Shown in pieces: positions 624-29,695 of a stretch of DNA of 32,453 nt. The position numbers were made by a program, and so were the translations under genes. Below the pieces are notes generated by a model that was not told the DNA's origin, did no database searches, and was given only the letters and a program-made list of their open reading frames with translations. Location: positions 1 through 32,453 of the forward strand of contig JAUYRZ010000133.1 of assembly GCA_030695565.1 (NCBI GenBank). The letters are read 5' to 3'. The DNA is from Archangium sp. Lineage in GTDB: Bacteria > Myxococcota > Myxococcia > Myxococcales > Myxococcaceae. Every line of letters starts with the position of its first letter. The stretch's first letter is position 1.

Positions 624-1895
624 CTACGGACGACCTCTCCCTGCTGCGCCGGGCGAGGTTTCCCGTCCCCTCAACAGCCACCACCAGATCGCACCAGACC
701 CCAGCAGGATCACCGACAACGAAGCCATCAGCACGCGCGGTTGAATGTGAAACGCGTCGAGCGCCTTCCCTCCGGCCCAACTCGAGAACCCGAGCACGAC
801 CAGAAAGAACATCGAGTCGACGGCGAATACCCGGCCGCGAAATCGATCTTCCACGCGCAGGTTGATGAGCGAGCTCGAAAACACCCACTGCGTCGCGACG
901 CCCATGTGAGCGAGCGACAAGCAGATCGCCGCCACCACCAGGTTCGGAGAAAACGCGAACAGCGCCCAGAACAGCGCAGTGACCACGAACGCCCAACCGA
1001 TGGCGCGCTCCAGAAACGGAGGACCGTCTCCACCGAACCGTCGCGCGATGAGCGGGCCAATCAGCGCCCCGATTCCGCGCATGCCGAGCAGCACGCCGAC
1101 ACCCGCGTCAGGCGAGCCCGGCACACCGAACACATGCCGGCCCATCACCGCGTAGAGCATCAACGCCGCGCCGCCGGTGATGCCCCAGCCGGTCTTCACC
1201 CAGAGCACGCGCCGAATCTCAGGGCGAGCGCGCACCAGCGCCAGCCCTTCGAGCAGATCAGTGAAGCCCAACCGCCCCGCGAGGGTCTTTGCAGCCGGCG
1301 GCTGCACCGGCCTGGGCACGACCGCGCGCGAGATGAAGAGGGCCGACAGGAGGTAGCTCAACGCGTCGACCACGAAGCTCGCGTCACGGCCGACCATGGT
1401 GGTGAGCAGGCCGCCGGCCACGGCACCAACGCCCAACATCGCGCTCCACGTGGCGCCTTGCAGGGTGTTGGCCGTGACCACTTCGTGCGGCTCGACCGTG
1501 CTGCCGATCGACGCCTGCTCTGCAGGATCGAAGAAGGCCGCGAGGCTCATCTGCGCGAAGGTCAATGCGTAGACGAGCCAGACGTCTTCGCGCGTTCTGA
1601 CCAGGAGGAAACCAAACACCACGACCGCTCTGAGCAGGTCGCACAGCACCATCACGTGCTTGCGCGAGAACCGGTCGGCCACCACGCCGGCCATTGGAGA
1701 AAGGAAGGCGGGTGGGAGGAACCGCGCGGTGAGCATCAACCCAACCGCTTCACTGCTGCCCGTGTATTCCTCGAGCAGGTTGTAGAGTGCGATCAGCGTG
1801 AACCAGTCGCCGGCCAGGCTGACGACGGAGCCCAGCCACAGCGCCCGGTAGTTGGGACGCGTTCTGAGGAGTTCGAAATAGCCAGGGGCCGTCAC
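624..1895 (-). CDS. MFS transporter, EntS/MFS_3-like exporter
   Basis: This 423-residue protein has many hydrophobic segments, as expected for a 12-helix major facilitator. The loop after the second helix carries a motif A variant (GVVADRFSRK, about residues 70-79), and the second half has a similar loop ending in ARRFGGDG. The overall look is that of the MFS_3/enterobactin-exporter-like group, which extrudes small molecules across the inner membrane by proton antiport. The substrate is not predictable. The start is a GTG, 51 bases after the phaC stop on the same strand, with a weak AGAGG upstream. It is the last gene of the PHA-linked run and may be co-transcribed with it, but the larger gap and the repeat at the phaC end make that less certain than for the upstream genes. 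Confidence 0.85.
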   Translation of the reverse strand: MTAPGYFELLRTRPNYRALWLGSVVSLAGDWFTLIALYNLLEEYTGSSEAVGLMLTARFLPPAFLSPMAGVVADRFSRKHVMVLCDLLRAVVVFGFLLVRTREDVWLVYALTFAQMSLAAFFDPAEQASIGSTVEPHEVVTANTLQGATWSAMLGVGAVAGGLLTTMVGRDASFVVDALSYLLSALFISRAVVPRPVQPPAAKTLAGRLGFTDLLEGLALVRARPEIRRVLWVKTGWGITGGAALMLYAVMGRHVFGVPGSPDAGVGVLLGMRGIGALIGPLIARRFGGDGPPFLERAIGWAFVVTALFWALFAFSPNLVVAAICLSLAHMGVATQWVFSSSLINLRVEDRFRGRVFAVDSMFFLVVLGFSSWAGGKALDAFHIQPRVLMASLSVILLGSGAIWWWLLRGRETSPGAAGRGRP

Positions 1896-1946
1896 GACGA
1901 GGCGCCTCTTGTCAGGGGCGGCTTCGTGACGCTCGTGGAAAAGACG

Positions 1947-2999
1947 CTAGCCCCGCACCCTGACCCTCTCCCGAAGGGAGAGGGAAGCACTGTCGTGTTT
2001 TTCGTAGAACGCGACCAACTGCGGCCAGAGCGTCTTGGCGGCGTGTTTGCTGACCACCGCGCCGACGTGCCCACCCGGCAGGTGCAGGTGCTGCTTGTCT
2101 TTCGCGCCGCACGCTTCGATCAACGCCGCCGCGCTGGGCCCCGGCACGATGTTGTCGTGCTCGAAGGTGACCGCGAGGGTGGGGCACACGAGGTTCTTCA
2201 GGTCGACCTGTTGGCCCTTGAGCATGAAGCGCCCGTGCACCAACGCGTTGCGCTGGTAGAGCTCACGAATGTACGTCCGGTAGAACTCGCCGGGGATCGA
2301 CACGTTGTCGTTGCCCCACGCCTCGAGCGCGAGGAAGCCGTCGAGGAACTCATCATTCCACGCGCGATCGATGAGGCTGACCGCCTTGGCGAGGGGCAGG
2401 GTGGGCCGGAGCAACTGAAACGCCGACTGCAGCAACTGCCACGGCACGTTGCCCGTACCCGCGACCAGCGCGTCGAGATCGAAACCCTTCAGGTTGGTCC
2501 ACCGCTGCAGCAGGCTGCCGTCGTCGAACTTCACGGGAGCAGCGAGCGCGACGAACGACTGCAGGTGCTCCGGGTGCACCGCGCCATGAATGGCCGCCAG
2601 CGTGCCGCCCATGCAGTAGCCGAGCACGTGGGTGCGATGGTGCGCGACCGTACCTGCCACCTTGCGGATCGCCCGGCCCAGCGCGGTGTCGACCACGTCA
2701 TCGAAGGTGACGAAGCGGTCTTCATCACCGGGCGTGCCCCAGTCGATGCAGAACACGTCGAAGCCCTGAGCGACGAGGTACTCCGCGAAGCTCTTGCCCG
2801 GCATCAGATCGAGCACGTAGTGCCGGTTGATGAGCGAGGGCACCAACAGCACGGGCGTCGGGTGCGAAATACCCTCGGGCCGCGCGCGGTAGCGCAGCAG
2901 CTTCCACTTGTTCTCCTGCCAGAACACATCTGCCGGAGTGACCCCGACCTGCGGCTTGGGGCGCGACAACAACCCAAGGAGATTGGTGATGCGCTTCAT
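1947..2999 (-). CDS. phaC: Class III polyhydroxyalkanoate synthase, catalytic subunit
   Basis: PhaC polymerises (R)-3-hydroxyacyl-CoA into PHA at the granule surface. The 350-residue length fits class III enzymes (about 355) rather than class I or II (about 560-600). The lipase-like box GYCMGG puts the nucleophile at Cys129. The other catalytic residues are Asp282 (EHDNIVPG) and His311 (GGHVG). The Cys-Asp and Asp-His spacings, 153 and 29, equal those I recall for Allochromatium PhaC (Cys149, Asp302, His331). The FCIDWGTPG segment (residues 83-91) is also typical. The ATG overlaps the stop of the acyl-CoA ligase gene by 4 bases (ATGA), with GGAGG ten bases upstream. The last residues, [12 protein letters not shown], are encoded by a dispersed repeat and look like an acquired tail. 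A class III enzyme needs a PhaE or PhaR partner; a short candidate lies two genes upstream. Confidence 0.93.
1951..1988. repeat. Dispersed palindromic repeat, copy 1 (inside the 3' end of phaC)
   Basis: The plus strand reads CACCCTGACCCTCTCCC, a short loop, then GGGAGAGGG, giving a hairpin with arms of about nine bases. It is the same family as the copies at 19094-19138, 19157-19201 and 32417-32453. Here it lies within the phaC reading frame and encodes its last dozen residues. Confidence 0.75.
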
Positions 3000-4732
3000 T
3001 CGTAGAGCGCCTCCAGGCGCGTGCCGAACGCCTTGTAGACTTCCTTACGACGCACCTTGAGCGTGCTGGTGAGCAGGCCGCTCTCCACCGTCAACGGCGA
3101 GTCGATGATCGCGAACTTCTTGATCGACTCGTACGACGCGAGCTGCGTGTTCACCTGATCGATGCGCGTCTGCACCAGGGCCTTGCGGGCTTCGGTCTGC
3201 GCACCGCCCGTCACGCCGGCCTGCTCGAGGTGCGCGTTGACCGCCTGCTCGTGCAGCCAGACCGCGGCGACGAGGTAGCGGCGCGCGTCTCCGTAGACCA
3301 CCACCGTGGAGACGAACGGATCATCGCGGAAGCGGAGCTCGATGTTCGCGGGCGGCACGTTCTTCCCGCCGGCGGTGACCAGGATGTCCTTCTTGCGATC
3401 GATGATCTGCAGGAAGCCGTCATCGGTGAATCGGCCCACGTCGCCCGTCTTCAGCCAGCCGTCTTCGGTGAAGGCTTCGGCCGTGGCCGCGGGATCCTTG
3501 TGGTACCCGCCGAACACCGTGGGTCCCTTCGCCATGATCTCGCCGTCTTCGGCGAGCTTGAGCTGCACCGAGGGCAACACCTTGCCCACCGAGTCGAAGC
3601 GGAACGCGTCAGGCCGATTGAGCGTGAGCGTGGGCGAGGTCTCGGTGAGCCCGTAGCCTTCGATGATCAGCAGGCCCGCGGCGTGGAAGAACTCCTTCAC
3701 CTCGCGCTTGAGCCCCGCACCACCCGAGAGGCAGAACCGCAGCTCGCCCCCGGTGACCGCGCGCAGCGCCGCCTGGCGTTTGGCCGGCTCGCTCTCGTTC
3801 ATCGCCGACATCGCGAGCTTCTCCCAGATGGCCGGCACGCTCATGAACACCGAGGGCCGCACCTCTGGCAGGTACTGCAGCACCTTCGCGGGCTCACACA
3901 GGTAGGTGATCCAGCCGAGCGCATTGCCCAGGCACGCTTCGCCGAAGCCGAAGATGTGGCTCATCGGCAGCCAGAGCAGATCGACGTCTTTGGTCTCCAG
4001 CAGCGGCGCGTTGCTCTTGAGCCAGTCGGAGCCGTTCACGCCCACGTTGCGGTGCGTGAGGGGCACGCCCTTGGGGTTGCCCGAGGTGCCGCTGGTGTAG
4101 AGCATCTGCGCGACCTGATCGAGCGAGACAGAGGCGAGCAGCCGCTCGAACTCGCCCGGCGCTTCCTGATCACGCGCGGCGCCCAGGGCCTGCACGCGGC
4201 TCCACGAGACGAGCTTGCGCTCCACCTCGGCGACGGCAGGCACCGGCAGCCCCTTCGCGCGCATCTTCTCGATGATCGGGCCTGCCTCCATCGGCTGAGC
4301 GCTCAGGGTGACGATGCGGGTGACCTGCGCGTAGTCGCTCCATGACTCGAACACCCGCTGCAGCAGCGCAGGCGTATCCACGAAGAGGATCTTCGTGTCG
4401 GAGTGGTTGACCACGTAGGCCGCTTGCGGCGCGGTGTTCGCCGGGTACACGGGCACCATCACGCCACCGACCGCCTGAATGGCCATCGCCGCGCTGATCC
4501 ACTCCACCGAGTTCGGCGCGAAGATCGCTGCGCGATCGCCCGACTGCAGACCCTCGGACGCGAGGAACAGGGCCGCCTGGCGAATGCCCTTCGCGTACGC
4601 ACTCCACGTCACCGCCTGCCAGTCGCCTTCGGCGGTGGGCAGCATGAAGCGGGGCCGCGTCTTCCGCTCGGGGAGCGAGTCGAAGATGGCGCGGGGGGCA
4701 GGCTTGAGTTCGAGGAAGGGAGTGATGTCCAT
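2996..4732 (-). CDS. Long-chain acyl-CoA ligase (AMP-forming, FadD-like)
   Basis: This is a 578-residue ANL-superfamily enzyme, which activates a carboxylic acid to acyl-AMP and then acyl-CoA. The ATP-binding P-loop is [11 protein letters not shown] (212-222). Next come YGLTETSP (360-367), TGD (429-431) and the hinge region [17 protein letters not shown] (445-461). The C-terminal catalytic lysine is probably Lys559 in [12 protein letters not shown]. The overall form resembles bacterial long-chain fatty acid ligases of the FadD15 type. The gene starts 23 bases after the PhaE-like gene and overlaps phaC by 4 bases, so it very likely makes the CoA esters that feed polymer synthesis, or the fatty acyl-CoA from which they derive. 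Its chain-length preference cannot be read from sequence. Confidence 0.9.
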
Positions 4733-4755
4733 GGGGTGGGCTCTGCCGTGAGGGT

Positions 4756-5055
4756 TCAGTTCTTCTTCAGCGCAGCCAACTTCTCTTCGAGGTCGATCAA
4801 CCGGCTCTGGATCTGATTGAGGGCGTGCAGGGTCTTCTCCTGGTCACGCTTGGAGGGCAGCCCGAGGCTTCCCCACCATTCTGCGCTCGCCTTCTCGACG
4901 TTCGCCTTCATCTTCATCGACGCGCTGAGCAGGTTGCCCATCGGCTGCAGCACGGCCGGTGACTTGAGCACCGTCTCCATCATCTCCGCGGTGCGCTGCT
5001 CCCACAGGTCGAAGCCCTTCTTCCACTGATCCCACAGCATCATCTGGTGCTCCAT
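4756..5055 (-). CDS. phaE: Short PhaE-like subunit of class III PHA synthase
   Basis: This is a 99-residue, mostly helical protein with Trp-rich amphipathic sequence ([15 protein letters not shown]) and a C-terminal coiled coil. The segment [18 protein letters not shown], continuing to [10 protein letters not shown], matches the conserved C-terminal PhaE pattern (LP.RRE.DEL...LHELRR) that I know from class III synthases. PhaE binds PhaC and is needed for its activity. Known PhaE proteins are two to four times longer, so this would be a minimal form. It sits 3 bases after lipoprotein B and two genes before phaC. The first ATG has no ribosome site and may rely on coupling. Met5, with GGAG six bases upstream, is an alternative start and would give about 95 residues. 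It could instead be a phasin; the position next to phaC favours PhaE. Confidence 0.66.
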
Positions 5056-5058
5056 TGT

Positions 5059-5889
5059 TCAAAGGCCGAGGCGTCGAAGCTCGGCGGTGGTGGTGAAGTC
5101 GTCGTTGAGTTCGTTGTCGGGCGCGGTGGCGCGGGCCACTTCACCGAAACACTCGAACACCCAGCCGACCTGGCGGCGGGTGATCGTGTTGCCGATGGCC
5201 GGCTCGATGGTGGTGGTGGTGCGCACGCGCATGGTCTGGGTGAAGGTCACGTCGGGCAGCTCGAGCTGGCCCACCGCGTCGACGCGCACCTGGTAGGTGT
5301 CGCGGCCGGCGTACGGCAACCCGCGCACCATCGCGTTGGCGACCTGGCCCACGCTGATCCACTGCTTGTTGGGCTCGAGGGGGAAGCGGAAGATCGCCAC
5401 CGGCTGCGTGTAGACGACCAGGGTCTTGCCCAGCGTGGGCGCCTCTTCACGCGACGCGTAGCCGAGCAGGAGCAGGTCGTTGCCGTCGTTCAGGTAGACG
5501 CCCAGCGTGGTGCCGCCGAGGTCGAGGGCGGAGACGAACTGCCCGGTGGGAAAGCTGGCGGCGAACCAGTGACCGGCGAGGGCCGAGGCCGAGAGGGTGG
5601 CCACGCGATCGTCGGCGTAGTCGATCGAGAGATCCCACACGCGCTGGCCCGCGGGGTTGGTGGCCCCGGGGATCGCCACGGGCCGCGAGCTGCCGGGAGG
5701 CGAGGCGAGGTAGCGCACCGGAATGCCCAGCGCCGCCCTGAGCTCGGTCGCGTCGACGCGCCCGTCGAGGTTGGGCACGCACTCCAGCGGGGCGACGGCC
5801 GGCGCGGCGTACGCTTCTTTGCTCGGGTAGGTGCGGTTCTCGCCGCACGCGCACAGCACCAGCAAGCCAACGAAAAGAGAGCGCGTCAT
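5059..5889 (-). CDS. Lipoprotein B, paralogue of the lipoprotein at 8354-9385
   Basis: This is a 276-residue protein with a signal peptide and lipobox (VLCAC, Cys15). I recognise no named domain, but the region after the signal peptide aligns along its whole length with the lipoprotein encoded at 8354-9385. Shared features in order are CxPNxDG, a VWD/EWD site, GHW/GEW followed by SFP/NFP, LGV, ND.L.L.G, a FPL strand, a RVRT strand, ECFG.VA, and a final NE...FT...E.RRL. The composition (beta-rich, few helices) suggests an outer-membrane or periplasmic beta domain. It starts 3 bases after the barrel gene and ends 3 bases before the PhaE-like gene. Being inside a PHA operon, it may help capture or process the substrate. 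Unlike its paralogue it lacks the Gly-rich linker. Confidence 0.8.
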   Translation of the reverse strand: MTRSLFVGLLVLCACGENRTYPSKEAYAAPAVAPLECVPNLDGRVDATELRAALGIPVRYLASPPGSSRPVAIPGATNPAGQRVWDLSIDYADDRVATLSASALAGHWFAASFPTGQFVSALDLGGTTLGVYLNDGNDLLLLGYASREEAPTLGKTLVVYTQPVAIFRFPLEPNKQWISVGQVANAMVRGLPYAGRDTYQVRVDAVGQLELPDVTFTQTMRVRTTTTIEPAIGNTITRRQVGWVFECFGEVARATAPDNELNDDFTTTAELRRLGL

Positions 5890-5892
5890 TTT

Positions 5893-7470
5893 CTAAAATC
5901 TCCACGCGAGGCGAATGCGCCCGAGCTGCGCAGGCTGCGCCTTGAGCGATTGGGCTGGGTTGTCGAAGCCTGCGAAAGGGAAGAGCACGGCGTATTCAGC
6001 GAGCACGTCGAAGCCGTCTTTGCTCGCCCAGGTCAGCGCGCCGTGGAACTCCATGCCCAGCGCAGCGTCGTTGCCGGGCGTCGAGCTCGCGTAGAACGCG
6101 CGGCTGAAGGTGGCGTCGGCGGCGAGGGTGAGCTGGTAGCTGCGGAACTCCAGCAGCCGCGCCTTCGCCCACGGCCGCACGTACCAGGCGTCGGTGACGG
6201 TGCCGATGATCTCCGCGAAAAGAATGCGATCGACCCGGTAGTCGGGGTGGAAGCGCAGGTTGTCGATGCGGGTGTCGCGGGGAATGTCGAGCTGCGGGCC
6301 GTCGAGCTCGCCTGCGTTCGGCGTAGATCCCGCGGGCGGGAACGCACCAAAGCCCGGAGCGGGATCGCCACTCGCGGCGCCTGCGTTGAGGCCGCCGATG
6401 AACACCGAACCCGGAGCGCCGATGGTGGTCTCGATCGATCCGCCCAGTTGCAGCGACTGCACGCGATCACGCAGCAGCACGCCCGGGAGCAGCGAGGCCT
6501 GCTCGACGTCGGCGTAGAGCATCGCGGCCTCGGCCTCGAGCTTGAAGCCTTCGGTCTGGAAACGCAGCCAGCCGTCGACCACCGCCGCCTTGTAGCCACG
6601 GCGCATCACGGAAGCCGGGGTCAGCGTGGTGTCACCGCTCACCGGCAGGTAGGCCGCCGGCACGTCGTTGTCTTGCCAGCGGTACGAACCGAGCAGCCCG
6701 TACTCGAGCGTCACCCGGCCCGCGAGGCGGCGGCGCTTGCGGGTGTGGTCGTCTTTGATGTTCATGAAGGCGAACGAGAACGACTGCACGTCGGTGCTGG
6801 GATCGAGGATGAGCTGACGCTGCCCGTCTTTGCGGAACTGGGTCGGGCCCACTGCGCTGAAGTCGTAGGCCACGGCCCAGAGGTGGCCCACCAGCGACGT
6901 CACGAAGGCGACGCGATCAGCCTGGTCGCCCAGGTTGCAATCGAGACAGTCGCCGCCGTTCGACATCATGCCCAGGCCCCACATGTTCCCCATGCGGCCG
7001 GCCGCGAGGTAGCCGAAGGGCGTGAGCACTTCGCCGTACGCACGCTTGATGCGCAGCAAGGTGGCGGGGAACTGGCCGGGGCTGGCCGCGGGCGTAGGCG
7101 CGTTGCCTGCACCGGGCGAGAGCACCGGCGTCGAGCCGAACACCAGGTCGTCGATGAGATCGGCGCGCACCTTCACGGCGGCCGCGGCGAAGGGGGCGTA
7201 GATCGCGAGGTCCGTGCGCAGGCGCATGTCGGCGACGAAGAGTGACTGGCCCGTGGGGTTGCCCAGCGGCACGGGGAACAACGCGAGGCCCGACGGCGTG
7301 GTGCCGCGATCGAGATCGAGGTTGTTGAGCAGGTCGCCGCGCACGCGCAGGAAGCCGTGCAGCTCGACTTCGATCTTCTCACGCTGGAAGAGATCGTCGC
7401 CGTGATCGGCCAGGCCAGAGGCCAGGGCCTGAGTGGCGGCGAGGAGCAGGACGCTCGCGAACGCTCTCAC
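5893..7470 (-). CDS. Outer-membrane beta-barrel candidate, TIGR04551-like
   Basis: This is a 525-residue protein with a cleavable signal peptide (cut near ALASG) and alternating hydrophobic strands throughout. It ends in RIRLAWRF, the terminal aromatic residue typical of barrels inserted by BamA. It resembles the myxobacterial family TIGR04551 as I remember it (about 500 residues, function unknown); I could not check this. The sequence GDCLDCN (about residue 175) holds two cysteines that could form a disulphide. It starts with a GTG preceded by GGAGG at 7 bases and overlaps the hydrolase stop (GTGA). Its position between two related lipoproteins, upstream of acyl-CoA ligase and PHA synthase genes, suggests a role in passage of a hydrophobic substrate, which is an inference. 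Confidence 0.75.
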   Translation of the reverse strand: MRAFASVLLLAATQALASGLADHGDDLFQREKIEVELHGFLRVRGDLLNNLDLDRGTTPSGLALFPVPLGNPTGQSLFVADMRLRTDLAIYAPFAAAAVKVRADLIDDLVFGSTPVLSPGAGNAPTPAASPGQFPATLLRIKRAYGEVLTPFGYLAAGRMGNMWGLGMMSNGGDCLDCNLGDQADRVAFVTSLVGHLWAVAYDFSAVGPTQFRKDGQRQLILDPSTDVQSFSFAFMNIKDDHTRKRRRLAGRVTLEYGLLGSYRWQDNDVPAAYLPVSGDTTLTPASVMRRGYKAAVVDGWLRFQTEGFKLEAEAAMLYADVEQASLLPGVLLRDRVQSLQLGGSIETTIGAPGSVFIGGLNAGAASGDPAPGFGAFPPAGSTPNAGELDGPQLDIPRDTRIDNLRFHPDYRVDRILFAEIIGTVTDAWYVRPWAKARLLEFRSYQLTLAADATFSRAFYASSTPGNDAALGMEFHGALTWASKDGFDVLAEYAVLFPFAGFDNPAQSLKAQPAQLGRIRLAWRF

Positions 7471-8357
7471 GGTGCACCTCCGAGGAACGCGGCCAGGTCG
7501 CGGTTCGACGCCGAGATCGCCTCGATCATCGGGAAGTGGCCGCAGCGCGGGTAGACCTTCAGCTGGGCGTTGGGCAACTGCCGCACGAGCTTTTCCCCGA
7601 CGGAGACCGGGGTGACCAGATCTTCCCGGCCCCAGAGGAGCAGGGTGGGCACGGTGATGGTCTTGTACCGCGGCTCGAGCTCTTCGAAGCGCATGCCACG
7701 CACGGCCTCGAGTGCACCTGCGCGGGTGCCCGGGCGCGCGAAGGCCTTCTCCACTTCGTCGGCCAGGTGCTGGGTGACCATGTCGGGATCGTAGAAACCG
7801 AGGGTCAGCCGCTCGTCCGCGCGCTCTGAATAGAAGAGGCCGAAGAGCACCTCACCCACGCCCTTGGCGCGCGCCATGTGGAACATGGAGGGCAGCTGCT
7901 CGTCGTAGACCCACGCGTCGTACAGCGCGATGCGCTCGACCTGCTCGGGGTAGTCCAGCGCGAAGGCCAGCGCGACCGAGGAGCCGTAGGAGTGGGCGAC
8001 CAGCGAGATCTTCCCCACCTTGCGCTCGTCGAGCACCGCCTTGAGCAGCTTCGCTTGCGAGGCCGGCGAGTAGTCGGCGACGGGGCGATCCGTCCACCCG
8101 AAGCCACGCATGTCGATGGCGATGATTCGGTGATCCTTCACCAGCTGCGGCATCACCGTGACCCAGTTCTCGATGCTCGAGGCAAAGCCGTGCAGCAACA
8201 CCACCGCCGGGCCTTCACCGACGTCGACGTAGCGAACGCGCGTGCCTTCGACCTGAAGATACGTGGCGTCTTTCGGCTCGCCGGGCATGGGGCCGTTGTG
8301 AAAGTGCAGGCAGCCGCTCCCCAGGAGCGCCAGCACCAGGGCAGCGCGCAAATTCAA
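7467..8357 (-). CDS. Lipid-anchored alpha/beta hydrolase with TTG start
   Basis: This is a 296-residue hydrolase with a full triad: Ser123 (AHSYGS), Asp246 (WGREDLVTP) and His274 (CGHFP). The oxyanion loop is HGF (56-58), and a cap region lies between residues 145 and 225. The N-terminus MNLRAALVLALLGSGC is a lipoprotein signal with Cys16, so the enzyme should be anchored outside the inner membrane. No ATG precedes it. The best start is the TTG at 8355-8357, with a perfect GGAGG 8 bases upstream and overlapping the stop of the previous gene (TTGA). Starting at the Met of GPMPGE would lose the signal. An in-frame extension further upstream is an artefact running through the lipoprotein gene. 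The likely role is hydrolysis of an ester or lipid at the envelope; the substrate is unknown. Confidence 0.85.
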   Translation of the reverse strand: MNLRAALVLALLGSGCLHFHNGPMPGEPKDATYLQVEGTRVRYVDVGEGPAVVLLHGFASSIENWVTVMPQLVKDHRIIAIDMRGFGWTDRPVADYSPASQAKLLKAVLDERKVGKISLVAHSYGSSVALAFALDYPEQVERIALYDAWVYDEQLPSMFHMARAKGVGEVLFGLFYSERADERLTLGFYDPDMVTQHLADEVEKAFARPGTRAGALEAVRGMRFEELEPRYKTITVPTLLLWGREDLVTPVSVGEKLVRQLPNAQLKVYPRCGHFPMIEAISASNRDLAAFLGGAP

Positions 8358-9385
8358 TTCGACAACCTCCGCACTTCGCCGGCGTCGGTGAACTCGGTGC
8401 TGCTCTCGTTGTTGGTCGAGGTGAGGGTTGCCACGGTGCCGAAACACTCCGCGTTCCAATTGAAAGACCGGATGGTGGTGGTCAGGAACCACTGGGCGAA
8501 GGTGTTGGCCCTGAAGTACCGATCCATCACGGTGCGAACGCGCAGCGTCTGGAAGCGGGTGTTGGCGTAGGGGGTGAGCGCTTCTCCGGAGCGGTCGACC
8601 GACGAGGTGTACACCTCGCGCTGCAGGGGAAGCGTCAGGCCGATGGTGTAGCCCTGGTACTTGCCGCTCACGCTGCTGTCCGTGCCCCACGAGATGCCCG
8701 ACTGCAGCGGGAACTGGAGCACCTTCACCCAGGGCGCGTAGTGGAGCTCCGTGCCGGTGGAGCTGTCGGTGGGGGAGACCACGCCCTGCAGGTAGAGCGC
8801 GTCGTTGGTGGCGCTGAACACGCCGAGCAGCGTGCTGCCCTGGCCGAGCTCGGTGACGTACCCCGCGTCGGGGAAGTTCGATTCGTACCATTCGCCGGTC
8901 AGCGCCCTGGTCTCCACCAGCCGCGAGGTGTCGCCGGCGAGGGCAGCGGTGAAGTCCCACTCGCGGCCACCGTCTGCGGCGGCCGTGCCCGCGGTGTTGA
9001 AGCTCGCCGGGCCGCTGATCTTGAAGGTCGCGCGCAGGCCAGGCTGAAAGAAGACCTCGTCGCGCTCGATGACGCCGTCGTTGTTGGGCAGACAGCCTGC
9101 GGACATTCCGCCGCCACCGGTGCCGCCGTCGACGCTCCCGCCACCACCCGTGCCTCCGCCGGTCGAGCTGCCACCGCCGGTGCCTGACCCGCCGCCCGCG
9201 CCGCCGCCGAGCCCGCCGTCTTCTCCGGTGCCTCCGCCCACGCCCGAGTCACTCACAGGCCCACAGGTGCCATCACGCAGGCACACGCCGCTCGCGCAAT
9301 CAGCCCCCACTCGGCAGTCGACCTGAGCACCCGGGCACGCCAGCAGCGCGACACAACCAACGACCACGAAGAGGGAGCGAGACAT
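8354..9385 (-). CDS. Lipoprotein A with Gly-rich linker, first gene of the PHA-linked run
   Basis: This is a 343-residue lipoprotein. The signal ends at lipobox ALLAC (Cys17). A short Cys-rich segment follows (DCRVGADCASGVC, CGP), as is common in myxobacterial lipoproteins. Next is a linker of about 60 residues of Gly, Ser and Thr, then a domain of about 240 residues paralogous to lipoprotein B (5059-5889). Key residues are CLPNNDG, EWDF, GEWYESNFP, LLGV, FPL, LRVRT, ECFGTVATLT and EVRRLSN. No named family is recognised. The start chosen is the ATG just before the signal peptide, with AGGA 8 bases upstream; an open frame continues further upstream but has no secretion signal. A TTGCA palindrome lies about 66 bases before the start, suggesting PhaR control. 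Confidence 0.83.
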   Translation of the reverse strand: MSRSLFVVVGCVALLACPGAQVDCRVGADCASGVCLRDGTCGPVSDSGVGGGTGEDGGLGGGAGGGSGTGGGSSTGGGTGGGGSVDGGTGGGGMSAGCLPNNDGVIERDEVFFQPGLRATFKISGPASFNTAGTAAADGGREWDFTAALAGDTSRLVETRALTGEWYESNFPDAGYVTELGQGSTLLGVFSATNDALYLQGVVSPTDSSTGTELHYAPWVKVLQFPLQSGISWGTDSSVSGKYQGYTIGLTLPLQREVYTSSVDRSGEALTPYANTRFQTLRVRTVMDRYFRANTFAQWFLTTTIRSFNWNAECFGTVATLTSTNNESSTEFTDAGEVRRLSN

Positions 9386-9450
9386 GAACGTCCTTTTCAC
9401 GCGTGCGGCCTTACGCCCGGGCCCTGCCGAAAGCCATCCGGGGTGGTCTG

Positions 9451-9461
9451 TTGCAGTGCAA
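9451..9461. promoter_or_regulatory. Probable PhaR operator 1 (TTGCAGTGCAA)
   Basis: This perfect palindrome, TTGCA-G-TGCAA, lies between divergent phaR and lipoprotein A. PhaR proteins are known to bind TGC-rich sequences near phaR and phasin genes. The 12-mer TGCAGTGCAACA is repeated exactly before the phasin gene. A weaker TGC-rich stretch, TTGTGCAGATGC, starts near 9495. Confidence 0.6.
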
Positions 9462-9558
9462 CATACCCAACGACAGTCCTGGCCCTGACGGAATTGTGCA
9501 GATGCGAAGACGAGGGCCTCATGGCGCGGTTTCAGGGGCGCTGTCAAGGCCACCCATG

Positions 9559-9568
9559 TTGCATTGCA
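9559..9568. promoter_or_regulatory. Probable PhaR operator 2 (TTGCATTGCA)
   Basis: TTGCATTGCA is a direct repeat of TTGCA ending 25 bases before the phaR start. The position fits autorepression of phaR. No clear Shine-Dalgarno sequence or -35/-10 pair is visible between it and the ATG. Confidence 0.55.
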
Positions 9569-9593
9569 CACTGGCGTTGGTACGGTCGAAATC

Positions 9594-10097
9594 ATGCTCG
9601 TCAAAAAGTACGGAAACCGGCGGCTCTACGACACCGACTCGAGCCGGTACATCACGCTGGAAGATCTGACCGCGGCCATCCGCGACGGCGCGGAGGCCCG
9701 GGTGGTCGACGCGAAGACCGGCCAGGACCTCACCCAGGTGACCTTGACGCAGATCATCATGGAGGGCAGAGGCGCCGATAAGATCCTCCCCGCCGCCTTG
9801 CTCCATCAGCTGATTCGCCTCGGAGACGACGCCCTGGCGGACTTCCTCGGCCGCTACGTGCAGGCGGCCCTCGAGCTCTACCTGACCGCCAAGAAGACCA
9901 CCCAGAGCTTCATGCCTTTCAACCCCCTGGTGGCCCTCACCCAGTTCGCCAACAACACCCCCTTCGGCGGCTGGGGCCAACAGTCGACGCAGCCGGTGCC
10001 GGTGCCCACCACCGCGCCGCCGCCTCCCAACGACATAGAGCAGATGCGCAAAGAGCTCGATGAGCTCAAGGGCATGCTGCGCAAGCGCAAGAAATGA
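9594..10097 (+). CDS. phaR: Polyhydroxyalkanoate synthesis regulator PhaR
   Basis: This is a 167-residue protein. The N-terminus carries the family signature KKYGNRRLYDTDSSRYITLE (residues 4-23), then VVDAKTGQDLTQ.TLTQIIME (38-57), which together form the PHB/PHA accumulation regulator DNA-binding domain. The C-terminal half is a helical PHB-binding-type region, then a Pro/Thr linker (about 130-150) and a coiled coil (EQMRKELDELKGMLRKRKK). In characterised systems PhaR represses phasin genes and itself, and leaves DNA when it binds nascent polymer. The ATG directly before LVKKY is chosen because the family starts there; a TTG ten codons upstream lies inside an operator. It heads a plus-strand cluster with the phasin gene and is divergent from the operon containing phaC. 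Confidence 0.93.
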   Translation: MLVKKYGNRRLYDTDSSRYITLEDLTAAIRDGAEARVVDAKTGQDLTQVTLTQIIMEGRGADKILPAALLHQLIRLGDDALADFLGRYVQAALELYLTAKKTTQSFMPFNPLVALTQFANNTPFGGWGQQSTQPVPVPTTAPPPPNDIEQMRKELDELKGMLRKRKK

Positions 10098-10108
10098 CGC
10101 AGAAATGG

Positions 10109-10120
10109 TGCAGTGCAACA
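10109..10120. promoter_or_regulatory. Probable PhaR operator 3 upstream of the phasin gene
   Basis: TGCAGTGCAACA is identical over 12 bases to the site at 9452-9463. It sits just upstream of a promoter-like TTGACG for the phasin gene, with a further ATGC at 10123-10126. Phasin promoters are the classic PhaR target. Confidence 0.6.
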
Positions 10121-10223: not shown

Positions 10224-10496
10224 ATGGCCGAGACCAAGACCGTCGCTTCGCAGGTGCAGCAATTTGCCGGTGAGAACGTCAAGAAGATGTTCGAAGAGCA
10301 GTCGACCCGCATGACGCAGGTGTTCGAGGAGATGGGCAAGGCCCACTCCAAGTGGATCGAGTACGGCAACACCCAGCTCGACGAGATGAACGAGCTGCTC
10401 AAGACCCAGTTCAACTACGTCAACGACCTCGCCGCGGGCATGCGCAAGCTGTCGCTCGACACCGCCAAGAAGACCGCCGAGACCTTCAAGAGCTGA
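10224..10496 (+). CDS. Phasin family PHA granule protein
   Basis: This is a 90-residue, all-helical, amphipathic protein without signal peptide or cysteine. The sequence GENVKKMFEEQSTRMTQVF, then LDEMNELLKTQFNYVNDLA and a Lys/Ala-rich tail (DTAKKTAETFKS), resembles phasins, which coat PHA granules and control their number and size. It is shorter than typical phasins of 110-190 residues. The ATG has AGGAG 8 bases upstream. An open frame continues upstream but would overlap the operator and promoter. The PhaR-type site, the neighbouring phaR gene and a hairpin terminator just after the stop support this call. By analogy it should be strongly expressed when polymer accumulates. Confidence 0.82.
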   Translation: MAETKTVASQVQQFAGENVKKMFEEQSTRMTQVFEEMGKAHSKWIEYGNTQLDEMNELLKTQFNYVNDLAAGMRKLSLDTAKKTAETFKS

Positions 10497-10590: not shown

Positions 10591-11337
10591 ATGGACCTCA
10601 AAACGCTCAAGATCATCGTCACTGGCGGCGCGCAGGGCATGGGCGCGCACTTCGCGCAGCGGCTGCTCGAAGCAGGCGCTGCGGTGGCGGTCGGCGACAT
10701 CAACGAGACCGCGCTGGCGGCGCTCCCCGCGGGCATCAAGCGCCGCAAGCTCGACGTGGGCAACGAGGCCGACATCGTCAGCTTCGTGGAGTGGGCGCAC
10801 GGCGAGCTGGGTGGCCTCAACGCGCTCATCAACAACGCCGGCATCCTGCGCGACGGCCTCCTGGTGAAGAAAGACAAGGTCACCGGCGCGGTGCAGAAGA
10901 TGAGCCTCGAGCAGTTCAACGCGGTCATCAACGTCAACCTCACCGGTGCGACGCTGATGGTGCGCGAGGTGGTGGCGAAGATGGTCACCACCGATCAGAA
11001 GCCCGGCGTCATCGTGAACATGTCGTCGATCGCCCGCCACGGGAACCGCGGCCAGAGCAACTACGTCTCGGCCAAGGCCGCGCTCGCGGCGAACACGGTC
11101 ACCTGGTCGAAAGAGTTCGCTCCGTTCGGCGTGCGCGTGGGCGCGGTGGCCCCCGGCATGATCGAGACCCCGATGACCAGGGGCATGAACCAGAAGGCCC
11201 TCGACGCGTTCATCGAGAAGATCCCGGTCGGCCGCATCGGCCAGCCCGAAGACATCTGGCTGGCGGCGAAGTTCATCCTCGAGTGCGACTACTTCAACGG
11301 CCGCACCATCGACGTCGACGGCGGCATGGGCTTCTGA
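10591..11337 (+). CDS. SDR-family reductase, FabG/PhaB-like
   Basis: This is a 248-residue classical short-chain dehydrogenase/reductase. The cofactor loop is TGGAQGMG (11-18), followed by NNAG (81-84), catalytic Ser145/146, Tyr158 and Lys162 (YVSAK), and a PGMIETPM loop. Next to phaR and phasin genes it may serve as acetoacetyl-CoA reductase (PhaB) or a related 3-oxoacyl reductase supplying (R)-3-hydroxyacyl-CoA. However, strand 2 ends in Asp36 (VGDIN), which in this family usually favours NAD(H) over NADP(H), so a 3-hydroxyacyl dehydrogenase role is also possible. The ATG is chosen because the family begins just before the Rossmann strand; no clear ribosome site is visible. The lipoprotein gene follows 2 bases after the stop. 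Confidence 0.85.
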   Translation: MDLKTLKIIVTGGAQGMGAHFAQRLLEAGAAVAVGDINETALAALPAGIKRRKLDVGNEADIVSFVEWAHGELGGLNALINNAGILRDGLLVKKDKVTGAVQKMSLEQFNAVINVNLTGATLMVREVVAKMVTTDQKPGVIVNMSSIARHGNRGQSNYVSAKAALAANTVTWSKEFAPFGVRVGAVAPGMIETPMTRGMNQKALDAFIEKIPVGRIGQPEDIWLAAKFILECDYFNGRTIDVDGGMGF

Positions 11338-26659: not shown

Positions 26660-29600
26660 TCAGTGATGGAGCAGCCTGGCCAGCCAGGATTCGAACTCGG
26701 CCGCTGACGGCACTCGGCGATCGTTCCGTTCGACGGGAGGAACAGCCACGTTCAGCGGCTGCGCCGGCCTGAGCGGGAAGTCGTCGTAGGCACCCGAGCC
26801 ATCACCATCGACCAGGATCGCGTTGGTCACGCCGAACGCGCGGCTGTTCGAAGGCGTGCAAATCCCGCCAGAGCAGCTCACGCCATCCCACGCCAACGGA
26901 GCGAGCGTGCGGCTGGCCGAAGAAGACCGCACCATCGCCACGAACCAGGTGTCGGTCGTCGGCGTCACCCGGAAGGTCTCGCGAACATGCACGCGCCGGG
27001 CGGCGAAGCCGTTCAAGCCCGGCACCGCCTCGAGGGTGAGCATCGTCGGATCGTACGTGCGGCGCAGCGCGGTCTGAGCAGGCAGCAAGGTGTTGTTCGA
27101 CTCCCCGTTGAGCGCTCCGCGGCCCGGCGCATGGGTGTGGAGTTCGATCGAGTCGAACTGCATCCACTCCGGGGCCTGCACGTCGACGGTCAGCTCGAGC
27201 TCGCCCGTGCCGGTCGCCGTATCGCCCACCTCGAACACAGGCCCGGTCGGCAGGCCGCCCACATCGAGCCGCCGCGCCGTCAGGGTGATGAACGGACCGC
27301 TGGAGAACGACGCCTTGCGCTGCTTCATCGCCTGCACGAAGCCGGCGGTGGTGAACTGGCCCGGCTGATCCACCCCGAGCTTGAGCCACGTGCGCCCGTA
27401 CCCGCCGATCACGTTGTACGTCACGTGCGTGTCGGACACGCCGGTGGCCACCTTGAGCCAGCCGCGCGACATGAAGGTCATCCAGTCGTTGAGCACCGCG
27501 GTGCTGGGGCTGGTGCCGTTCATCACCTCGAGCGCGTCGTAGTCGTTCGAGTACAGCCTGGTGTCGAGCGAGGTCGCGTCGGGCGCCGGCTCCTGGCGGA
27601 AGTTCGCGGGATCCGCGTGCGTGGCGGCGGTCTCCGTATCGATCTGCATCATCGTCAACGCGCCACCCGGTGAACCGCGCGGGTGATTCATCTGAATCAT
27701 CGCGTCGGGGTTCGCCTCCCGAATGCCCTGGTACATCTGACCCAGCCGCAGGCTCGCCCCGTCGCCGCCGGCCCAATCGAAAGCGCCGCCGTTGAGCGTG
27801 GCGTGGCGAGCGAGCGGGAAGGTGTTGTGGTGGCCGTAGTCGAACGGAGTCACCTCACACCCGATCATCGAGGCCATGGTGTTGGAGAGCTGCAGCTCGG
27901 CCAACACGGGCGCGTAGTCGGTGACGAAGTCGTGATCGGTCGAGACGAGCACGTCGACGCCTTCGGCCGCGAAGCTCATCGCGCGAATCGAGTTGCTGAC
28001 CGCGCTGTCCGGGCTGCCCATCGCGTGCACGTGCAGATCGGCGCTCATCCAACCGGCGGTATCGACCACATGGGCGAGCGTGGCAGCCACTGTCTGATCG
28101 CCCGTGCGGAGGTCGACCAGCTGACCGCGCGTGGGGAAGGTATCGGGGAAGGCCGAGTACTCCATGCCGCGCGAGACGAGCACTTCGTACTCACCCGGCG
28201 GCAGCGGAATGACCGCGCGCCCATCGACCCCCACGTGAACGATCGCTTGAAGGTCAGACGGCTGAGCTTCCACGTTCGCCCACAGCCGGTAGTCGGTGAG
28301 CTGATTCGTGCAGGGCGGGTTGGTGCAGCGCACCACCACCTTCGCGGTGAGCGGGAGGTTGAACGGATCGGCGACCTGCACGGTGAGCGTGCGCGAACCG
28401 CCGCGTTTCACGGTGATGTTCGACTCCCCATTCGAAGGCACGGAGACCGCGGTGAGCGGCTCGAGTGCAGCGCCCTGAGCGCCGGTGCCAATGAGGTAGT
28501 TCCCGGGCCGCACGTCAGCGCGCGCGAGCCCCTGCGCATCGGCCACCAGCAACGTCAGCATGCGCCCCGACTCGGCGTTCTTCACCGTCACGCGCCCACC
28601 CGGCACAGGCGTGCCATCCGCGTTCTGCACGGTGACGCTCAGGCGCGACTTCGGGGCCGCGTCGAGACCGAGCATCGCTCCGGTGATTTCACCGAGGTCT
28701 TTACCCACGAAGAAATCGCGCAAGAAGGTGCGCTTGTCGCCGGGGAGCACGCCGAACGAGCCTGGGCGCCGCGTCGCATCAGCGTCGACCCACGAGAGCA
28801 GGCCGGCCTGGTTCTCTCCATCTGCCAGCACCGCCGCCACGCCCGCCACGTAGAGCAGCGCGTTGGTCGAAGGCGTCTTCGAGTCGGCAAACTTGTACGC
28901 GCGGTAGCCGTAGGCGACGCCATCGGCCTGGTATCCGAACCAGGGCATGGGATCGATGAGGCAGCTCTTCGCGCCGAGGCCGTTGGTGCAGCCCTCGGGG
29001 TTGAAGATCTCGCTGACGCCGCCTTGATCGACGAGGTCGCCGACCTGCATCGAGACGGTGTCCTTGCCGTTGTTGCAGAAGGCGGACAACACGCGCACGC
29101 GGCTCTCTCCGGGCGACAGCACGTAATAGGTGGTCACCAGGAAGGGCAGGGGCGCGTTCGGATCGCGCACCAACTGCACGTTGCCCAGGAACTCACCGAT
29201 CACGTTGTTCACGTTCACGTAGTCGATGACGGTGTCTTCGCCCGTGGCCGCGATGACGGCATAGCCACCCTTGGAGCCGTCGTTCACCACCTCGACCTTC
29301 GTGTGATTCACGGTGCGGCCAAAGGCGTAGACGAGCCCCATCTTCCCGAACTCGTCGCGGCCCGCCACGCCTTCGCTGCGTTTGAGATCAGCGTCGATGA
29401 TCGTGCCGCCATACGGGATCGGCGCGATGAAGTGAGACGGCTGCTGAATCACCACGCGCACGCGATCGTTCTCGAGCAGCAGGTCTCCCACGCGGCCTTG
29501 CGCGTAGTTGCCGCCGATGAGCTGGCTCGCGTCGGCGATGGTCTTGGCGGTCGCTCCGGTGCCGACCTTGGAGAACTGATCGAGCGCGGCGAGATCGATG

Positions 29601-29695
29601 TCACATCGGCCGGTCGGGTCTGGCGGCTGCACCATCTGCTTGTTGGGCGGACACGCCGTCAGCAGGACAAGGACAGCGAGAGCGGAACGTCGCAT
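26660..29695 (-). CDS. CehA/McbA-family PHP metallohydrolase, lipid-anchored
   Basis: This is a large 1011-residue lipoprotein with lipobox LLTAC (Cys15). Residues about 30-350 form an unassigned beta-rich region. Next come carboxypeptidase-regulatory-like or Ig-like beta domains (RLSVTVQNADGTPVPGGRVT and SRTLTVQVADPFNLPL), about 350-540. A PHP metallohydrolase domain follows, with HxH in ADLHVHAMG (about 553), STDHDF (about 587), MNHPRG (about 670) and VSDTHVT (about 754), which are the metal ligands of the CehA/McbA type. The tail is Pro-rich. Such enzymes hydrolyse phosphoesters or related bonds at two or three metals; carbaryl hydrolase CehA gave the family its name. A C-terminal beta region follows. 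The ATG has only a weak AGAG upstream. Confidence 0.8.
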   Translation of the reverse strand: MRRSALAVLVLLTACPPNKQMVQPPDPTGRCDIDLAALDQFSKVGTGATAKTIADASQLIGGNYAQGRVGDLLLENDRVRVVIQQPSHFIAPIPYGGTIIDADLKRSEGVAGRDEFGKMGLVYAFGRTVNHTKVEVVNDGSKGGYAVIAATGEDTVIDYVNVNNVIGEFLGNVQLVRDPNAPLPFLVTTYYVLSPGESRVRVLSAFCNNGKDTVSMQVGDLVDQGGVSEIFNPEGCTNGLGAKSCLIDPMPWFGYQADGVAYGYRAYKFADSKTPSTNALLYVAGVAAVLADGENQAGLLSWVDADATRRPGSFGVLPGDKRTFLRDFFVGKDLGEITGAMLGLDAAPKSRLSVTVQNADGTPVPGGRVTVKNAESGRMLTLLVADAQGLARADVRPGNYLIGTGAQGAALEPLTAVSVPSNGESNITVKRGGSRTLTVQVADPFNLPLTAKVVVRCTNPPCTNQLTDYRLWANVEAQPSDLQAIVHVGVDGRAVIPLPPGEYEVLVSRGMEYSAFPDTFPTRGQLVDLRTGDQTVAATLAHVVDTAGWMSADLHVHAMGSPDSAVSNSIRAMSFAAEGVDVLVSTDHDFVTDYAPVLAELQLSNTMASMIGCEVTPFDYGHHNTFPLARHATLNGGAFDWAGGDGASLRLGQMYQGIREANPDAMIQMNHPRGSPGGALTMMQIDTETAATHADPANFRQEPAPDATSLDTRLYSNDYDALEVMNGTSPSTAVLNDWMTFMSRGWLKVATGVSDTHVTYNVIGGYGRTWLKLGVDQPGQFTTAGFVQAMKQRKASFSSGPFITLTARRLDVGGLPTGPVFEVGDTATGTGELELTVDVQAPEWMQFDSIELHTHAPGRGALNGESNNTLLPAQTALRRTYDPTMLTLEAVPGLNGFAARRVHVRETFRVTPTTDTWFVAMVRSSSASRTLAPLAWDGVSCSGGICTPSNSRAFGVTNAILVDGDGSGAYDDFPLRPAQPLNVAVPPVERNDRRVPSAAEFESWLARLLHH

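Follow-up and report, generated by a model that had tools for sequence, protein, structure and literature searches.

A conserved outer-membrane gene cassette attached to polyhydroxyalkanoate genes in Myxococcota may link extracellular esters to polymer storage

Polyhydroxyalkanoate (PHA) is seen as a reserve that bacteria produce from central metabolism and keep inside the cell. In the class III PHA operon, phaC and phaE are associated with PhaR and a phasin. Outer-membrane proteins are features of other systems, such as FadL-FadD vectorial acylation, which pairs an outer-membrane barrel with an acyl-coenzyme A (acyl-CoA) ligase, and the SusC/SusD polysaccharide utilisation loci, in which surface lipoproteins, a surface hydrolase, an outer-membrane channel and downstream metabolism are encoded in one operon. 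Here we describe a locus with features of all three in a stretch of 32,453 nucleotides from Archangium sp. (assembly GCA_030695565.1, contig JAUYRZ010000133.1), hereafter called the window. An original prediction held that eight genes in this window constitute one coupled operon, by which an ester or lipid is captured and hydrolysed at the cell surface, imported, activated to a CoA ester and stored as PHA. The gene content, operon structure, conservation, catalytic motifs and operator-like sites reported below were read from the sequence of the window and from a comparison set of 195 Myxococcota genomes, with 34 loci fetched beside the window. It is well supported by this comparison that what is conserved is a cassette of four envelope genes joined to PHA genes.

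The locus resembles a class III PHA operon in its PhaC catalytic triad, its PhaE C-terminal domain, its PhaR, its phasin-like gene and its reductase. However, its PhaC1 and PhaE score below the NCBIfam class III cut-offs, its PhaE is 99 amino acids long, and four envelope genes and a ligase gene reside in the same operon. As in FadL-FadD vectorial acylation, a barrel is combined with a ligase and no inner-membrane carrier is constant, but the barrel belongs to TIGR04551 and not to FadL (PF03349), and a lipoprotein hydrolase, two lipoproteins and a polymerase are added. Although the operon is organised like a SusC/SusD locus, no TonB-dependent barrel or SusD was matched by Pfam among the eight proteins, and esters would be expected as substrates instead of glycans. 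Use of prey PHA by a predatory bacterium is exemplified by the PHA depolymerases of Bdellovibrio (PMC4834554), where single depolymerase genes are involved rather than an integrated surface-to-storage locus.

All eight predicted open reading frames (ORFs) were found on the minus strand of the window between positions 624 and 9385, and the measured junctions match the predicted overlaps and gaps exactly. Adjacent genes overlap by 4 bases at lipA/hyd, hyd/barrel and ligase/phaC, and are separated by 3 bases at barrel/lipB and at lipB/phaE, by 23 bases at phaE/ligase and by 51 bases between phaC and the gene for a major facilitator superfamily (MFS) transporter. Domain searches agree with the products originally assigned (MFS transporter, PhaC, AMP-forming ligase, PhaE piece and alpha/beta-hydrolase). 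A scan for sigma-70 promoters and terminators yielded nothing above shuffled sequences and suggests no internal promoter, and a search of Rfam gave no match.

To define the extent of conservation, the envelope cassette was taken as lipA, the lipoprotein hydrolase, the 18-strand TIGR04551 barrel and lipB. A lipoprotein profile detects lipA/lipB in 35 of the 195 genomes, of which 11 fall outside the class to which Archangium sp. belongs, and the two genes are paired in nearly all. The cassette order is kept in the 34 fetched loci wherever the contig allows, mostly with overlapping genes, apart from one variant locus and one insertion. Both lipoprotein genes follow the barrel gene at L053 (inside the class, family f9), where the contig ends in the barrel, and a gene for an M74 murein endopeptidase is inserted after lipA at L063 (genome G186). 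The cassette barrel of G186 is also split into two pieces in different frames (L063:4343-5834). Each of the 11 loci from outside the class has the genes for the hydrolase and the TIGR04551 barrel between the two lipoprotein genes.

Within the class, barrel orthologues are present in 21 other genomes (48-88% identity), and the order lipA-hyd-barrel-lipB-phaE-ligase-phaC1 is unchanged wherever the contig continues, with ligase-phaC1 in place at 16 loci, the window counted. The original prediction proposed a comparison of gene order across Myxococcota, and the order indeed recurs in relatives, which rules out chance clustering. By contrast, the MFS transporter gene (624..1895, PF07690), counted in the prediction as the eighth operon member, is an occasional neighbour. 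The conserved operon in the class has seven genes, and an MFS gene lies downstream of phaC1 in only five genomes. Among the 35 carriers of the cassette, 31 have a phaC match, compared with 59 of the 160 other genomes (raw counts, not corrected for kinship), and the phaC loci of genomes that lack the cassette (L039, L045-L047) carry no such envelope genes.

PHA genes (phaC, acyl-CoA ligase, phaR) touch the cassette at most loci, in four arrangements. Type I is that of the window. In type II (families f10, f24 and f25; L035, L060 and L061), a different ligase gene is located upstream, where it overlaps lipA by 4 bases in L035, and a mini-PhaE-like ORF and phaC are located downstream. In type III (family f11; L055-L057), phaC precedes lipA (immediately in L055 and L057), and genes for inner-membrane symporters of the SSF or SNF type adjoin the cassette in L056 and L055. 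Type IV (family f31; L064) comprises a ligase, a short-chain dehydrogenase/reductase (SDR), phaR and a weakly PhaC-like protein. This last protein is an alpha/beta-hydrolase with a GYCGQG box, encoded between lipB and the ligase (L064:5960-7460), and is possibly a replacement for PhaC. Two unrelated ligase types are thus associated with the cassette, one downstream and the other upstream and coupled to lipA. Since most carriers show phaC or ligase/phaR beside the cassette where the contig allows, the envelope genes are not mostly separate from phaC, contrary to the refuting case named with the original prediction. The phylum-wide linkage, the gene sets that are rearranged yet retained, and the shared PhaR-type operators described below strongly support the earlier claim that envelope and PHA genes are joined in one process.

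The phaR gene (9597..10097, plus strand) is divergent from lipA, as it is in class loci, and is adjacent to the cassette in nearly all loci. Its product is identified as a PHA-responsive repressor by matches to PF07879 (E=1.8e-26) and TIGR01848 (E=6.6e-29); the DNA-binding domain PHB_acc_N scores 92.5 bits, above its cut-off of 25, and TIGR01848 scores 100.5 bits, below its cut-off of 109.45. Operators for such proteins have been described as TG[N]TGC[N]3GCAA, footprinted for PhbF of H. seropedicae (PMC3206438), and as TGCRNYGCASMA with the core TGCRNYGCA for PhaR of B. diazoefficiens (PMC6201568). Three putative PhaR operators are present at the locus, namely a perfect palindrome TGTTGCAGTGCAACA upstream of lipA (9449..9463), TGTTGCATTGCAC on the plus strand 37 bases upstream of the phaR start (9557..9569), and TGGTGCAGTGCAACA upstream of the phasin-like gene (10106..10120). 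The palindrome TGTTGCAGTGCAACA fits both the PhbF motif and the PhaR core. The sequence TGTTGCRNYGCAM is found in only about nine separate positions across the 8.5 Mb genome, three of them at the PHA/envelope locus.

Similar sites recur in relatives, where the core precedes phaR by 32-41 bases at most loci of the class. Their lipA-phaR intergenic regions hold 27 cores, whereas shuffles have 1.7. Enrichment is also seen on the lipA side taken by itself, with 15 occurrences of TGC-N3-GCA compared with 3.9 (0 of 200 shuffles as high). On the basis of these operator-like sites, the envelope operon is predicted to belong to the PHA regulon. The only other perfect PhaR-type palindrome in the genome (L066:3002-3016) lies about 100 bases before an unannotated ORF of 461 amino acids (3119-4504), in a neighbourhood that includes a gene for 3-hydroxybutyrate dehydrogenase.

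On the PHA side of the operon, PhaC1 (1947..2999) is a class III-like PHA synthase that matches PhaC_N and whose best family is TIGR01836 (274.2 bits, E=1.5e-81), under the curated class III cut-off of 365.3. Alignment with the solved synthase 5hz2 reveals the catalytic triad Cys129-Asp282-His311, with its lipase-like box, expected of a PHA synthase, and the PhaC Cys motif is present in all class orthologues. PhaC1 is the only convincing PhaC match in the window genome. In most class relatives, phaC2 resides between the phasin-like gene and the SDR gene; it is cleanly missing in the window genome (10496-10591) and in L017, so that PhaC1 is then the sole PhaC. The predicted PhaE-like subunit (4756..5055) is borne out by a PF09712 match (29.4 bits, above the gathering cut-off of 25.7), but the gene encodes only a 99-amino-acid C-terminal piece, covering profile positions 230-307 of 311. 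It falls short of a full-length class III PhaE, as only the C-terminal quarter is matched by TIGR01834 (29.3 bits, cut-off 154.95), and we therefore call it mini-PhaE. The acyl-CoA ligase (2996..4732) is an AMP-forming enzyme of the AMP-binding_C_3 type (PF00501, E=1e-66; PF23562), for which the best NCBIfam model is FadD11, with a score below the FadD11 cut-off.

On the envelope side, lipA (8354..9385), lipB (5059..5889) and hyd (7467..8357, TTG start) each encode a signal peptide and a lipobox Cys, and fit the pattern of bacterial lipoproteins; their lipoboxes are retained across the phylum. LipA (lipobox ALLAC) is of the surface type, with a Cys-rich segment, a Gly-rich linker and a beta-rich domain in common with its paralogue LipB (about 30% identity). 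Neither is matched by Pfam or NCBIfam. The LipB model (predicted local distance difference test [pLDDT] score 90) has a half-barrel fold similar to YmcC/GfcB-type lipoproteins (2in5, 3fzx and 4fvs; Z 7-9.5, 8-10% identity), although here no polysaccharide genes are found nearby and the genes for the hydrolase and the barrel lie between those of the two paralogues. It is also weakly similar to the lipid carriers LmcA, LolA and microsomal triglyceride transfer protein. The hydrolase is a lipid-anchored alpha/beta-hydrolase (lipobox GSGC; PF00561, E=2e-34) with the triad Ser123-Asp246-His274, whose motifs are retained in nearly all orthologues. Its matches among solved structures are ester and C-C hydrolases, including the polyhydroxybutyrate (PHB) depolymerase 8ynv (E=2.8e-24).

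The barrel (5893..7470) represents a cassette-specific subfamily of TIGR04551 (329.6 bits, above the curated cut-off of 300) and is matched by no Pfam family, FadL PF03349 included. Its AlphaFold model (27 sequences, pLDDT 79) has 18 strands and resembles AlgE, Campylobacter MOMP and OprD-family channels at Z 22-26. Sequence identity to these channels is about 10%, and TIGR04551, to which the barrel belongs, is a Myxococcota family. AlgE is closest (Z 25.9), with only a slightly lower score for uptake channels of the OprD type (Z 24). A sequence search of solved structures with the barrel and the lipoproteins identified no relative. TIGR04551 proteins occur in 192 of the 195 genomes, mostly as a core paralogue apart from PHA genes (for example G000:C114:50311-51903, L037). 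This core paralogue, found away from the cassette in nearly all Myxococcota, is a candidate phylum-typical outer-membrane channel. A branch with 100/100 support separates the cassette barrels from the core paralogue, which rules out repeated recruitment from it.

Two further plus-strand genes follow phaR. The first encodes a small phasin-like protein (10224..10496) that keeps its position between phaR and phaC2/SDR and has no convincing family match in Pfam or NCBIfam. The second encodes an SDR oxidoreductase (10591..11337; 69-92% identity within the class), which is kept beside phaR/phaC2 in relatives and sits where an acetoacetyl-CoA reductase (PhaB-like) would be expected. Elsewhere in the window, a protein of 1011 amino acids (26660-29695) has a carboxypeptidase-regulatory-like domain as its sole recognised part.

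We propose, with a probability of about 0.4, that the operon scavenges esters and stores them as PHA under the control of PhaR, and that extracellular hydroxyalkanoate oligomers would be the simplest substrate. The protein locations, substrate, import direction and regulation in vivo in this proposal are what we infer from the genes. A hydrophobic ester would be bound at the outer membrane by a unit composed of the half-barrel lipoproteins LipA and LipB and the 18-strand channel. The lipoprotein hydrolase, an enzyme whose class is evident from its sequence, would cleave the ester at the outer membrane, and the released acid would pass through the barrel. The ligase of the operon may then trap the acid as a CoA thioester, in the manner of FadL-FadD vectorial acylation; a transporter of the inner membrane would assist in some genomes only. 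PhaC1 with mini-PhaE would polymerise the CoA ester. Such a sequence of capture, hydrolysis, import, activation and storage could accommodate every gene.

Hydroxyalkanoate oligomers are the simplest substrate because the ligase and PhaC would then suffice, with all seven genes used and no extra enzymes needed: hydrolysis would give 3-hydroxy acids, and the ligase 3-hydroxyacyl-CoA, which PhaC accepts directly. Myxobacteria prey on other bacteria. Predators are known to liberate PHA granules, along with hydroxyalkanoate products, from their prey (PMC4834554), and 3-hydroxyalkanoate oligomers or polyester from lysed PHA-rich neighbours or prey could be the source. In the presence of PHA or its oligomers, PhaR would derepress the envelope genes along with that for the phasin. 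We suggest more tentatively that the locus is a dedicated polyester utilisation system, in which a conserved outer-membrane unit takes up extracellular hydroxyalkanoate esters and one operon converts them directly to intracellular PHA, with PhaR as the sensor. The co-occurrence of PF10503 (secreted esterase/PHB depolymerase) is uninformative, as this family occurs widely, in 22 of the 35 carriers and in 71 of the 160 other genomes.

Several observations weigh against the ester-scavenging proposal. The hydrolase scores far under the cut-off of every depolymerase model (for example, 90 bits against 300 for NF050089, an intracellular short-chain-length PHA depolymerase), no inner-membrane transporter is constant among the loci, and the lipA-side operator motif is less regular than that before phaR. 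In addition, lipB-phaE in G033, the one exception to linkage within the class, is followed by other DNA, with ligase-phaC1 on another contig, and the surroundings of the cassette show no PHA gene in genomes G155 and G193 or at loci L058 and L065. Many phaC-bearing Myxococcota genomes also lack the cassette, which is therefore not needed for PHA synthesis. Finally, the nearest folds of the barrel and lipoproteins (AlgE, YmcC/GfcB) come from polysaccharide export systems, and this likeness keeps export as a rival. In such a scheme, hydroxyalkanoate oligomers or polymer made by PhaC1 would exit through the AlgE-like barrel, to be trimmed or anchored at the surface by the lipoproteins and hydrolase, and extracellular PHA has indeed been reported for an Alcanivorax mutant, by a mechanism that is unknown (PMC7147478). 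However, there is no conserved inner-membrane exporter, and uptake channels of the OprD type resemble the barrel almost equally well. Moreover, the ligase is either kept or swapped for an unrelated type that is still coupled to the cassette, which suggests that the acid released by the hydrolase needs activation, a step that export would not require. This retention of a ligase favours import, and we consider export distinctly improbable.

A substrate other than polyester would preserve the same surface-capture-to-storage logic. Lipids, phospholipids or plant esters, the broad version put forward in the original prediction, could yield fatty acids that are taken up and activated, with beta-oxidation as their route to PHA. 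The closest match of the ligase is to long-chain fatty acid ligases (FadD11), and FadL-FadD is an established route of acid uptake with no inner-membrane carrier. Yet two FadL-type channels are already encoded elsewhere in the genome, which rules out an ordinary FadL replacement, the operon lacks an (R)-hydratase and any other gene that would connect beta-oxidation with PhaC, and the adjoining gene set is PhaB/3-hydroxybutyrate-like. Such lipid or plant-ester substrates are possible but unlikely. It is improbable, to a somewhat greater degree, that the cassette shares only its regulation with the PHA genes, as a general surface adaptation to polymer build-up with no common substrate. PhaR regulons do take in unrelated genes (PMC6201568), and G155 and G193 carry the cassette with no phaC nearby, but the linkage survives independent rearrangements and different ligases, and the hydrolase-ligase pair is hard to explain unless a substrate is shared. 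Lastly, PhaC1 and the ligase might act on lipid droplets and acylglycerols rather than PHA, like the mycobacterial PhaC-ligase fusion (PRK07868/Rv1683 type), whose model NF005898 pairs the same two domains and weakly matches PhaC1 (66 bits). This is very improbable, given that PhaC1 is far better matched as a class III PHA synthase and that the genes for the PhaE piece, PhaR and the phasin-like protein adjoin that of the only PhaC in the genome.

The literature that was searched, which left most subscription journals outside its reach, contained no description of such a system, of myxobacterial PHA with outer-membrane genes, or of TIGR04551. The linkage of the surface-protein genes to the PHA genes suggests a previously undescribed system that leads from the harvest of esters outside the cell to PHA. 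If the ester-scavenging proposal is true, some bacteria would build their PHA reserve directly from outside esters, perhaps from the PHA of lysed prey. A function would thereby be provided for the TIGR04551 subfamily and for an unnamed lipoprotein family, and the locus would represent a natural module for taking up and recycling polyesters.

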